DNA of 21,902 nt from positions 1 to 21,902 of the IMG/VR virus record IMGVR_UViG_3300029264_000380; one strand, written 5' to 3'. The notes beneath the pieces were generated by a model. That model was not told the origin of the DNA. It made no database searches and was given only the letters and a program-made list of their open reading frames with translations. Source of the DNA: a virus. Numbering within the stretch: position 1 is the stretch's first letter; each line of letters starts with the position of its first letter. Below are positions 6,937 through 10,454 of this stretch, piece by piece. Both the position numbers and the translations under genes were made by a program.

Positions 6937-6965
6937 ACATTAGCTAATGCCTAATATTGAGTCAA
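6937..6965 (-). promoter_or_regulatory. Leftward early promoter (PL-like)
   Basis: On the minus strand, TTGACT (6960-6965) is separated by 17 bases from TAATGT (6937-6942). One 15-bp operator lies across the spacer and -10, and a second begins at the -35. This is the expected design for a repressor-controlled early promoter. Transcription should start near 6930 and enter the long leader. Confidence 0.7.
6940..6954. promoter_or_regulatory. Operator OL-a
   Basis: TTAGCTAATGCCTAA, 13 of 15 matches to the ideal palindrome TTAGGCAATGCCTAA. It covers the spacer and -10 of the leftward promoter, so bound repressor would block polymerase. Confidence 0.7.
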
Positions 6966-6979
6966 TAGGTAATGCCTAA
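6965..6979. promoter_or_regulatory. Operator OL-b
   Basis: ATAGGTAATGCCTAA, 13 of 15 matches to the ideal palindrome. Its centre is 25 bp from the neighbouring operator, a little over two helical turns, so cooperative binding on one face is plausible. It touches the -35 box. Confidence 0.7.
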
Positions 6980-6997: not shown

Positions 6998-7020
6998 AAA
7001 AAAACCCGCCGAAGCGGGTT
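6998..7020 (-). terminator. Terminator closing the immunity operon
   Basis: On the minus strand, AACCCGC-TTCG-GCGGGTT is followed directly by further T residues (7003-7009 with 7014-7020, T-run to 6998). It stops the repressor/kinase/DUF3037 transcript just before the leftward promoter. Confidence 0.9.
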
Positions 7021-7040: not shown

Positions 7041-7916
7041 TTAGGCTACTTTCTGCCACCAATCGATGGTTAGGTTGGCCAGCTCATCACTTGATCTCGC
7101 TTGCAGGACATCAATCCCGGAGCGCTTCAGCCGGTCCAGCTGACGCTCTGCAGCGAATTCGTGCTTGTTAAGCTCTCGTGTAGTCAGTCCGCTGCTCGGC
7201 CCTGGCATAAGGACTGACATTGCAGCTTTGCGCCGGTCCGAATTGCTGTAAACCAAAAGAAGGTCTGAAGCGGCCTGCAAAAGGTTGTTCTCCACTACGA
7301 GCGGGCTTTTATACCAAGCCGAAACGATTGTGCCTGCGGCCTTAGCATTGAGCAGGGGTATATCTACGTCTATTAACGCATTGTTATTGAGTTGAAGACG
7401 GTATGGGTCCTGACGAATGATATTTTCGGCCTCGAGAGCCATTTTCTCCTTCATTATTTCGAAGACGGTTTCTCTTACCTTGTAATTGGACCTGTAGCGG
7501 AAGCTTGACCTCGGCTTCTTGTTCGTGGGCTTACCCAGGGTCACGGCGTCATCGAAAAAGTCATCTACAAGCCCATCTAAGTCGTCACCAGAGGCAAACA
7601 GGGCGGGGCCCAGGCGTATGGAATCGCTGAGCTCTTCTGGAAGGTCTCCTTTGGACTGACGCACAGTGTCTTCTATATCCAGCATCAGGTGGGTCAGGCT
7701 CGACAGGTCGACTCGATCAGTATAAAGGCATTTCACACGATCAAAAGAATCCAGCATGCGGACTTCAACCCGACCGCCATGGCAAAACATAACCCCGACA
7801 TTGAGATACTCATCGGTATATTCGTCCAAGCGCATGCTAATAGCCCGCCACTTGCCTTGATAGGCGGGCGTCGTGTCGGTATGCAGCTCTTGGCGCAGTC
7901 TTGCTAAACGGTTCAT
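7041..7916 (-). CDS. DUF3037-like partner of the HipA-like kinase
   Basis: A 291-aa protein. Near the N-terminus it reads GKWRAISMRLDEYTDEYLNV then GVMFCHGGRVEVRML. The N-V-G-V-x-F strand (residues 39-44) after a T-D-E-x-L segment is the recognisable part of DUF3037 proteins. The rest is helical with an Arg/Lys-rich C-terminal third. Its ATG overlaps the stop of the kinase gene as ATGA, so the two are made together. From memory, DUF3037 genes often sit beside short HipA-like kinases; the function of the pair is not established. Here it is the last gene before a strong terminator and should be expressed in lysogens along with the repressor. It may be substrate, antitoxin or effector partner of the kinase; this is inference. 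Confidence 0.7.
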   Translation of the reverse strand: MNRLARLRQELHTDTTPAYQGKWRAISMRLDEYTDEYLNVGVMFCHGGRVEVRMLDSFDRVKCLYTDRVDLSSLTHLMLDIEDTVRQSKGDLPEELSDSIRLGPALFASGDDLDGLVDDFFDDAVTLGKPTNKKPRSSFRYRSNYKVRETVFEIMKEKMALEAENIIRQDPYRLQLNNNALIDVDIPLLNAKAAGTIVSAWYKSPLVVENNLLQAASDLLLVYSNSDRRKAAMSVLMPGPSSGLTTRELNKHEFAAERQLDRLKRSGIDVLQARSSDELANLTIDWWQKVA

Positions 7917-8797
7917 ATCACCATGCCGTGTGATTTAGCGTAAGCACGCGAGTCGTGCTGATTGCGAAGTAGATGGAGGATAGCGTCGATTTCCGCCACG
8001 TCAAAAAGATGCGCGAGAGCTTCTCTTGCGGCCGATTCACCGTGAGCCCTGAAGCTCATAGCGAAAGCCTGGTAAGCCATAAGAATTTTGCTTTTGTTCG
8101 GCAGCTTCTGACTCCAAGCCGTCTCATGCTTATCGAGAAAAGTGCTTAGCCGGTTTTCCAACACCATCCCAGAACCAAGAACGCCCAAGTTGCCGGGCTT
8201 CCAGTTAGGATAAGCCAGTATACGCCCATGATCGATAAGCATCATCTTCCCGCCCGCTACCGACAGCAGATTGCCGGGGTGGCGGTCAGAATTAACCAGC
8301 CAGTCATCGAACGCCACTATGCTCGCAGTGTCTTCTGATTTGGCTAATTCGGCGGCTATGCGCTTCAAACGTCTTTGTTGAAGAAAGGGGATGTTAATGC
8401 CGTCAAGATGCTTTTCCAAAAGGTTGGGGTAGGCCATATCTTGAGAGAACCAGCATAGATAGTCCTCTTGTACCCCGTCCGGCGAGATGCCCCGCAGGCA
8501 TGCCAGCGTGTTTTCGGGTATCTGGTTTGCCTGCAGGAGTATTATCCCTGCGGCGGCAGGCACCTCGAAGCCACAGGACTTTGCGAGCACATAGCCCAAA
8601 GCCTCGCTGGGCAATTCTTGATTTTGAACGATATCTCTCGTGGCTGGACATCTGATGGAGTCAGGCTGGGGCTTCACATAACAATGCACGCTAGCTTTGC
8701 CTATGCGAATTTTTGCGCGAAACAAAGGGTTGATGCCTTGTGACTTCGGGGCTGTTAACGCCCCCGCGAAAGCATTACTGCGTAGCGTCTGAATCAT
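7913..8797 (-). CDS. HipA-like kinase (short, HipA_2 type)
   Basis: A 294-aa protein, much shorter than classical HipA (about 440 aa) and lacking its N-terminal domain. The kinase core is recognisable: a likely ATP-site lysine in VHCYVKPQ (K42), a helix Glu in ELPSEALGYVLA (E65), the catalytic stretch FDDWLVNSDRHPGNLL (D171, H173, N176), and the metal-binding LIDHGRIL (D189). All key residues appear intact, so phosphotransfer is possible. HipA phosphorylates glutamyl-tRNA synthetase and causes dormancy; the target here is unknown. The gene overlaps the repressor gene by 23 bases and the DUF3037-like gene by 4. No classical HipB lies beside it, although the repressor itself is an HTH protein and could play that part. 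The ATG at 8797 has a weak Shine-Dalgarno. Confidence 0.85.
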   Translation of the reverse strand: MIQTLRSNAFAGALTAPKSQGINPLFRAKIRIGKASVHCYVKPQPDSIRCPATRDIVQNQELPSEALGYVLAKSCGFEVPAAAGIILLQANQIPENTLACLRGISPDGVQEDYLCWFSQDMAYPNLLEKHLDGINIPFLQQRRLKRIAAELAKSEDTASIVAFDDWLVNSDRHPGNLLSVAGGKMMLIDHGRILAYPNWKPGNLGVLGSGMVLENRLSTFLDKHETAWSQKLPNKSKILMAYQAFAMSFRAHGESAAREALAHLFDVAEIDAILHLLRNQHDSRAYAKSHGMVI

Positions 8798-9296
8798 TTT
8801 TGGTTAACTTATCCCTAAGTCTTTTATGGTTTCCGCCTGCCGCAGCGGTCGGCCTTTTTGAACCCTCGAACCTCTCAGCTATGCGCTGAAGAAGGTCTAT
8901 GTCGTCCTCAGTTAGCCGTCCTTCCGCTGATGCGCGAATGATTCTATCCAAGGCGGACTTGCTACGAGGGGTAACTATTTCAGAAAGGTCTTTCATGAAA
9001 ACATTGCCGTAGGCGGCAGTGACATCTGGCTCGCCCAGACTCATGGATTCCTTCTCTGTATGGTCTCCATAAATCATGCTTGGCTGATTACCCAAACCCC
9101 AATGCTCAGGGCCCACATCGCCCCTGAAGTACTCGAAAAGCTCGGAAAGCTTCTTCTTGTCAATGCGGCCTGTTGCTATCCATCCACTAATGGATGGCGG
9201 CTTGACGTCGAAATGCCGGGCCATATCAGCCTTGCTGACACCCTTCTTTAACCTCGCAGCCTCAATGGCTTTACCTAATTCTGTACCTGTAAGCAT
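8775..9296 (-). CDS. CI-type phage repressor lacking a cleavage domain
   Basis: A 173-aa protein. Residues 8-50 form an XRE/Cro-type helix-turn-helix: AIEAARLKKGVSKADMARHF, then DVKPPSISGWIATGRI. The C-terminal part (TPRSKSALDRIIRASAEGRL and LTEDDIDLLQRIAERFEG) is helical and probably mediates dimerisation; there is no S24/LexA-like Ser-Lys peptidase domain, unlike the 210-240-aa lambda-type repressors. Direct RecA-stimulated self-cleavage is therefore not expected. The start codon lies inside an operator with only a short upstream AGG, which suggests a leaderless or weakly initiated mRNA as for lambda cI. Divergence from the Cro-like gene and the operators on both sides support the call. Confidence 0.85.
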   Translation of the reverse strand: MLTGTELGKAIEAARLKKGVSKADMARHFDVKPPSISGWIATGRIDKKKLSELFEYFRGDVGPEHWGLGNQPSMIYGDHTEKESMSLGEPDVTAAYGNVFMKDLSEIVTPRSKSALDRIIRASAEGRLTEDDIDLLQRIAERFEGSKRPTAAAGGNHKRLRDKLTKNDSDATQ

Positions 9297-9303
9297 TGCC
9301 TAA
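9289..9303. promoter_or_regulatory. Operator OR-a over the repressor start
   Basis: GTAAGCATTGCCTAA on the plus strand, 13 of 15 matches to the palindrome (central base T in this reading). It covers the repressor start codon, so occupancy could feed back on repressor synthesis. Confidence 0.6.
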
Positions 9304-9332
9304 TCTAACTCGTGTAGGTGGTTATTAGGCAA
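9303..9332 (-). promoter_or_regulatory. Possible repressor promoter (PRM-like)
   Basis: On the minus strand, TTGCCT (9327-9332) and TTAGAT (9303-9308) are 18 bases apart, placing the start of transcription at or next to the repressor ATG. Both boxes are weak, as expected for an activated or autoregulated promoter. Low certainty. Confidence 0.35.
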
Positions 9333-9339
9333 TGACTTG
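9325..9339. promoter_or_regulatory. Operator OR-b
   Basis: TTAGGCAATGACTTG, 12 of 15 matches with a perfect left half. It lies between the divergent starts and overlaps the likely -35 regions of both. Confidence 0.6.
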
Positions 9340-9366
9340 CTTTAGTGTTAGCCAATGCCTTACTCT
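9337..9366 (+). promoter_or_regulatory. Possible rightward early promoter (PR-like)
   Basis: TTGCTT (9337-9342) and TACTCT (9361-9366) are 18 bases apart, with an operator filling the spacer, the same design as at the leftward promoter. The boxes are imperfect. The GGAGG of the Cro-like gene follows at 9383. Confidence 0.4.
9348..9362. promoter_or_regulatory. Operator OR-c
   Basis: TTAGCCAATGCCTTA, 13 of 15 matches. Its centre is 23 bp from the neighbouring operator, and it covers the spacer of the rightward promoter. Confidence 0.65.
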
Positions 9367-9393: not shown

Positions 9394-9636
9394 ATGACCC
9401 CAAAGAAAGCCGTTGCCGCGGCCAGCAAGCTCGTTGGCAGCCAGGCAGCGCTGGCAAAGCAGCTTGGCGTTAAGCCGCCCACAGTCAACCAGTGGGCAAG
9501 CGGTGAACGGCCTGTGCCAGCGAATCGAGCGCTTCAGATTGAGCGAGTTACCAAGGGTGCCGTCAACCGGAAGGATCTTTGCCCTGAGTTCCCGTGGGAT
9601 CTTGAGTCCGATGGAGAAATGATAGGCGCTGCCTGA
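9394..9636 (+). CDS. Cro/YdaS-like HTH regulator
   Basis: An 80-aa protein with one helix-turn-helix: AAASKLVGSQAALAKQLGVK, then PPTVNQWASGERPVPANRAL and a C-terminal KDLCPEFPWDL. The ending and length are typical of the YdaS/Cro-like family, the first gene of the rightward early operon of lambdoid phages. GGAGG stands 6 bases before the ATG. It is divergent from the repressor and reads from the three-operator region, so it most likely competes with the repressor for these sites and favours lytic growth. The names cro and ydaS are both used for such proteins, so I leave the symbol empty. Confidence 0.9.
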   Translation: MTPKKAVAAASKLVGSQAALAKQLGVKPPTVNQWASGERPVPANRALQIERVTKGAVNRKDLCPEFPWDLESDGEMIGAA

Positions 9637-9721: not shown

Positions 9722-9740
9722 CTTACTAGACGAGGTGATT

Positions 9741-10454
9741 ATGACAACTGACTTGATGATGAGCAATAGCCCGGAGCGCACTATGCAATCCAGTGAGCTG
9801 CTGGCCCTGGTTAACCAGGCGCGTGAGAGTTATGGCGAGCGGGCTGTTCGTCGCAATGACTTTATATCCCGCTGTGAAGATGAGCTTGAAGGCGAGCACT
9901 ACGAAACTTTCGTAGTGAAGAATCCAAACCAGACTGAGTCTCGCGATTTGCGGCTCAAACTTGATCAGTGCCTTTGGGTACTGATGCGTGAATCAAAAGC
10001 TGTGCGCCGATCCGTTACCAGCAAGCTAAATGAGCTTCGCAACCAGCAGCGCCACATCCCTGAATCCCTTCCTGAAGCCTTGCGTCTGGCTGCTGACCTG
10101 GCAGAGCAGAACAATTCGCTGCGCCTTGTGGTGAAAGAGCAGGAGCCGAAGGTGCAGGCGCTTGAGCGCATTGCGGACGCCAAAGGCACGCTATGCATGA
10201 CGGACGCTGCAAAGCATTTGGGTGTGCAGCCCAAGGCGCTGATTGATTGGCTGCGTGACAACCGGTGGATTTATCGCCGACAAAGCTCTGCGCGCTGGAT
10301 CGCGTTTGAGCCCCGCTTGTCTCAAGGGCTGCTGTGGCACAAGACGTCAGTGATTGGCGTTGGTGAAGATGGTGAGCAGCGGGTTGCGTCACAGGTGCGC
10401 GTCACGCCCCGCGGTTTGGTGGTGTTGGCTCAGAAGCTGGGAGGGCGCAACTGA
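9741..10454 (+). CDS. KilAC-domain antirepressor-like protein
   Basis: A 237-aa protein. The N-terminal half (LLALVNQARESYGERAVRR, later LRLKLDQCLWVLMRESKAVR) resembles Rha/antirepressor N-domains. A Leu/Gln-rich helix links to residues of about 140-235, the KilAC domain: ERIADAKGTLCMTDAAKHLG, LIDWLRDNRWIYRR and VTPRGLVVLAQKLG. KilAC proteins act as antirepressors or early regulators. I use the ATG at 9741 because GAGG lies 5 bases upstream; a GTG at 9735 is less well placed. Its stop overlaps the replication gene start by one base. With a repressor that cannot cleave itself, an antirepressor would be an obvious induction route, but that link is inferred. Confidence 0.85.
   Translation: MTTDLMMSNSPERTMQSSELLALVNQARESYGERAVRRNDFISRCEDELEGEHYETFVVKNPNQTESRDLRLKLDQCLWVLMRESKAVRRSVTSKLNELRNQQRHIPESLPEALRLAADLAEQNNSLRLVVKEQEPKVQALERIADAKGTLCMTDAAKHLGVQPKALIDWLRDNRWIYRRQSSARWIAFEPRLSQGLLWHKTSVIGVGEDGEQRVASQVRVTPRGLVVLAQKLGGRN

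Follow-up and report, generated by a model that had tools for sequence, protein, structure and literature searches.

Gene content and anatomy of the repressor operon

The window, i.e. the whole stretch of DNA analysed here, comprises positions 1 to 21,902 (21,902 nt) of the 21.9-kb virus record IMGVR_UViG_3300029264_000380 of IMG/VR. It carries terminase, replication, antirepressor and RdgC genes and therefore represents a temperate phage, a dormant virus of Pseudomonas-type bacteria. Genes for a repressor, a HipA-type kinase and a DUF3037-like protein form a single minus-strand operon that ends in a terminator (Table 1). The ORFs lie exactly where an earlier note on this DNA had placed a three-gene run followed by a terminator, with overlaps, taken from the ORF coordinates, of 23 bases (repressor/kinase) and 4 bases (kinase/DUF3037-like). 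No S24 peptidase domain was found in the window repressor. A gene for a KilAC-domain antirepressor is positioned downstream of the Cro-like gene (window 9735-10454), and is a possible route of induction for an S24-less repressor.

Table 1. Features of the repressor operon and its flanks (window coordinates)
Feature	Position	Strand	Remarks
Left operator-like palindromes (OL-like)	6940-6954, 6965-6979 (6940..6979)		Just past the terminator
Intrinsic terminator	7003..7020 (stem)	-	T tail; 20 bases beyond the last stop of the operon
DUF3037-like protein, 291 aa	7041..7916	-	Probable antitoxin/regulator
HipA-type kinase, 294 aa	7913..8797	-	Probable toxin/effector
Repressor, 173 aa	8775..9296	-	HTH N-terminal half (RacR-like) and helical C-terminal module
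Repressor C-terminal module, coding stretch (~residues 104-173)	8775..8987	-	Common to kinase-linked repressors with unrelated DNA-binding halves
Putative Shine-Dalgarno-like AGGGA	8812..8816	-	Within the repressor gene; 15 nt upstream of the kinase ATG
Right operator-like palindromes (OR-like)	9289-9303, 9325-9339, 9348-9362 (9289..9362)		Between the repressor and the Cro-like gene
Cro/YdaS-like gene	9394..9636	+	Divergent from the repressor; first gene of the lytic operon

The kinase and its partner

Alignments of 20-22 relatives revealed that kinase residues D171, N176, D189 and E65 are invariant, while K42, conserved in 20/20 relatives, was graded nearly invariant; the first three are those that the earlier note had read as intact. 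The predicted structure (pLDDT 87; alignments for folding were rebuilt without the Moraxella row) matched CtkA (Z 15.7), HipA (Z 12.8) and HipT (Z 12.4), pointing to a HipA/HipT/PI4K-type fold with an intact predicted ATP site. Since the model has a kinase-type fold and the catalytic residues are invariant or nearly so, the objection foreseen in the earlier note, that the protein might lack a usable ATP site, does not hold. For the kinase, sequence searches of solved structures returned only weak lipid-kinase matches, and for the DUF3037-like protein they gave no credible match.

Searched singly, the two proteins are barely recognizable. The kinase matched Pfam HipA_2 with an E value of 0.023, short of the cut-off, and PADLOC PDC-M66A weakly (E value 0.011); the 291-aa protein likewise fell short of the cut-off for Pfam DUF3037 (E value 0.073) and matched PDC-M66B weakly (E value 0.0068). 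We therefore base the names HipA_2 and DUF3037 on relatives and on profile comparisons. HipA_2 was matched by 16/22 kinase relatives (best E value 6.1e-9) and DUF3037 by 9/21 partner relatives (best 3.9e-4). Using hhalign, the kinase profile aligned to canonical PDC-M66 kinases with 96.9 % probability (E value 1.7e-10) and the partner profile to canonical DUF3037 proteins with 82.9 % probability across 230 columns, while the cross-pair control gave 0.1 %. Together with the adjacency of the two genes at every locus, these values uphold the proposed pairing of the kinase with a DUF3037-like gene. The NVGV motif by which the partner had been described is located at residues 39-42, and its NVG is invariant in relatives. 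The model of this protein has a low pTM (0.50); residues 141-291 resemble nuclease-like and Rossmann-like domains at Z <10 (CdiA-CT, Z 9.8; ERCC1, Z 9.6).

Recurrence of the pair behind phage repressors

Both genes were present in 30/30 IMG/VR contigs and 8/8 genomes turned up by our scans, with the 4-base kinase/partner overlap nearly universal and a phage repressor upstream of the pair wherever upstream sequence was examined. The same gene order was found in Pseudomonas phage D14P, with identical 23- and 4-base overlaps, and in Moraxella phages Mcat22 and Mcat18, where it is kept at ~24 % identity. That the order recurs across relatives, mostly with the same overlaps, suggests that the arrangement is more than chance, and the survey proposed in the earlier note thus shows the pair to be a recurrent occupant of prophage immunity operons. 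In sampled genomes it is rare, being carried by 3/399 genomes of one Pseudomonas genus and by 5/398 genomes of a phylum sample. When 294 genomes of the order were scanned with PADLOC PDC-M66A, the pair-carrying genome G006 gave no match. The canonical chromosomal PDC-M66 pairs that we examined lack an upstream phage repressor; hence, regulation may differ here.

Related arrangements were seen elsewhere. At locus L091 (3464-5614), a much more distant HipA_2 kinase and a 305-aa partner without a Pfam match stand behind a repressor with the same N-terminal type as that of locus L005, which suggests repeated capture at this slot. On tiny 3.4-kb enterobacterial plasmids, a VbhA-family antitoxin gene accompanies a related kinase/partner pair (L094, 369-2056), and a chromosomal kinase/partner pair (L102, 1025-6634) adjoins a 1172-aa protein, helicase-like by eye, as in a defence island.

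Two classes of kinase-linked repressor

The repressors linked to the kinase fall into two classes, most being module-bearing and the others of an S24-peptidase type. Members of the module-bearing class have several unrelated N-terminal DNA-binding halves and the last ~70 residues in common. Across 16 lineages, similarity of the repressor C-terminal half tracked kinase similarity (Mantel rho 0.57, p 0.0005), whereas that of the N-terminal half did not (rho 0.00). The module contains a conserved [ST]PR[ST] motif and, among the 399 Pseudomonas-genus genomes, was found at full length in none but the 3 pair carriers. Its helical part is also present on solitary repressors without the pair, indicating that the module has another role.

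Codon usage separates two parts of this module. In the helical core, third codon positions vary, so this part is conserved as protein. The sequence for the terminal RLR.KL of the repressor, by comparison, coincides with a fixed AGG/AAG site and with the start of the kinase gene, and both first and third bases are fixed at the RLR position; a ribosome-binding-like site and the overlap with the kinase gene thus account for part of the constancy of the extra tail. The AGGGA upstream of the kinase is nearly fixed among relatives, with a 15-nt spacing that is longer than usual. As for the correlation between module and kinase, recombination at the domain linker and linkage to the kinase are enough to explain it.

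In the second class, an S24 peptidase domain was confirmed by Pfam in 5/5 repressors tested, and the pair follows the repressor without the 23-base-type overlap. In the tree of the pair, this class is not one clade, requiring at least two changes. The repressor is therefore not an obligatory antitoxin, as unrelated S24-peptidase repressors take its place in at least two lineages. We accordingly abandoned that candidate, one of the two antitoxins proposed in the earlier note, and the operon departs here from the HipBA type, in which the HTH protein is the obligatory antitoxin of the kinase.

Operator-like sites at both ends of the operon

The repressor operon is bordered by five operator-like copies of a 15-bp palindrome (about TTAGGCAWTGCCTAA), of which two lie to its left and three to its right. 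Allowing three mismatches, we counted 15 matches where 3.8 were expected, palindromes scoring on both strands, and 0/100 shuffles reached 15; matches on both strands were confined to the operon's two ends. Matched palindromes of different sequence were likewise detected at both operon ends in D14P, at loci L006 and L027 and in a Moraxella phage. Many other loci returned no matched pair of sites in this test, partly as a result of the mechanical choice of repressor starts.

With operator-like palindromes at both ends of the operon, the pair is situated after the repressor and ahead of the left operator cluster, i.e. in the rexAB position of lambda, and by position only it corresponds to Rex-type exclusion cargo. 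In Pseudomonas putida, a CI-like repressor gene is known to be followed by a Rex-type (RexAB) defence (PMC12894663). By analogy, cargo in such a slot downstream of the repressor would be expressed in the lysogen.

A probable role in defence of the lysogen

Pairs of the same kind have been tested by others. A HipA-like kinase and DUF3037 pair (PADLOC PDC-M66) in the Retron-Sda1 operon protects against phage Bas51, and does so independently of the adjacent retron; deletion of HipA abolishes this defence, and deletion of DUF3037 is toxic (PMC12548924). The same pair type was described as DS-6 and renamed HipAD; here, a catalytic kinase mutation abolishes defence, and a kinase-DUF complex was predicted with an ipTM of 0.76-0.79 (PMC13092281). 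The window pair is remotely homologous to this system (PDC-M66 / DS-6 / HipAD; PMC12548924, PMC13092281). The suggestion of an undescribed module therefore fails, and the pair most likely belongs to an already known kind of defence, as a divergent branch coupled to a repressor.

We consider it probable that this divergent, prophage-borne HipAD branch in the rexAB slot guards the lysogen against other phages by means of a kinase held by the DUF protein. The repressor, kinase and DUF3037-like genes would most likely be co-transcribed in the lysogen, with the kinase kept inactive by its partner. Infection by a second phage would supply a trigger that frees the kinase, which could then phosphorylate a target and stop growth or phage production, so that the prophage would protect both its host and itself. 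Gene anatomy, predicted active site, fold, recurrence, homology and operator geometry are established here; for defence, and for an antitoxin role of the DUF3037 protein, the best reading of this branch comes from its homologues, and its homology to the tested pairs is remote. Two suggestions of the earlier note gain support in this way, namely that the pair probably acts in defence or abortive infection (PMC12548924, PMC13092281) and that its antitoxin is the DUF3037 protein. It is loss of DUF3037 that is toxic in the tested homologue (PMC12548924), which, along with the persistence of the pair behind unrelated repressors, speaks against the repressor in that capacity.

The behaviour of the homologue as a toxin-antitoxin system (PMC12548924) and the strict pairing with a 4-base overlap would also suit an addiction module that kills or arrests cells losing the prophage, with defence secondary or absent. 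This is compatible with the defence reading, but it depends on the stability of the DUF protein, and the homologues tested by others do confer phage defence (PMC12548924, PMC13092281); as the principal function, we find addiction unlikely. The HipA family offers a precedent for growth arrest, and the fold match of the kinase to HipA/HipT might point to lysogenic conversion, e.g. drug tolerance, with no anti-phage role. Given the repeated placement of the pair in phage immunity operons and the activity of its homologues in defence (PMC12548924, PMC13092281), an effect of this sort on host physiology alone is very improbable.

The repressor module invites a further reading, in which the kinase acts on the repressor of its own prophage via the C-terminal module and controls induction without a RecA-cleavable S24 domain. 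The tracking of the kinase by the module and not by the N-terminal half, the conserved [ST]PR[ST] and the restriction of the full-length module to pair carriers in the Pseudomonas genus would all fit such a lysogeny switch. Yet the helical part has another role on solitary repressors, the extra tail is partly fixed at the nucleotide level, pairs persist behind unrelated S24 repressors, and linkage with linker recombination can yield the same correlation; we therefore think it improbable. The idea that the repressor tail is a peptide docking specifically to the kinase looked strong at first, and was demoted to a low-probability idea by the solitary repressors and by the overlay of the AGG/AAG site and kinase start. 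There is a small chance that the module is a working part of the system, either binding the kinase or serving as its substrate, with the toxin gated directly by the repressor's state; if so, a single switch would govern both phage immunity and abortive defence.

Comparison with known systems

On the defence reading, a newly described defence system would gain a divergent branch that escapes current detection models. What is new is the attachment of this HipAD branch, which lies under Pfam and PADLOC thresholds, to phage immunity operons, and its travel, in most lineages, with the C-terminal ~70 residues of the repressor while the DNA-binding domains swap. Phages have repeatedly put the pair in the rexAB slot, a position that would by itself ensure expression in the lysogen, and the constant module, kinase and antitoxin behind swapped DNA-binding domains offer a natural series in which to probe for a mechanical link between immunity and defence.

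The closest system is HipAD (= DS-6 = PDC-M66). In both it and the window pair, the kinase gene comes first and overlaps the DUF3037 gene, and profile comparison shows the two pairs to be homologous. Going by the reference list of PMC13092281, the discovery of HipAD is credited to a study of E. coli prophage defence, so that it was reported from prophages, and the present pair is likewise prophage-borne. The branch differs in its remoteness, with scores under the usual thresholds, in its attachment to phage repressor operons and in its longer kinase (294 aa versus ~240-275 aa in the canonical loci examined). HipBA and HipBST share the HipA/HipT-type kinase fold, the catalytic residues and an upstream DNA-binding protein in the operon; however, their small antitoxins are replaced here by the DUF3037-like partner, and the HTH protein is a phage repressor, whose place can be taken by unrelated repressors. 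With the RexAB systems of lambda and of P. putida prophage P1, the operon shares the placement of two cargo genes behind the repressor and between operators, the cargo being a DNA-binding protein and a membrane protein in RexAB and an unrelated kinase and DUF3037 protein here.
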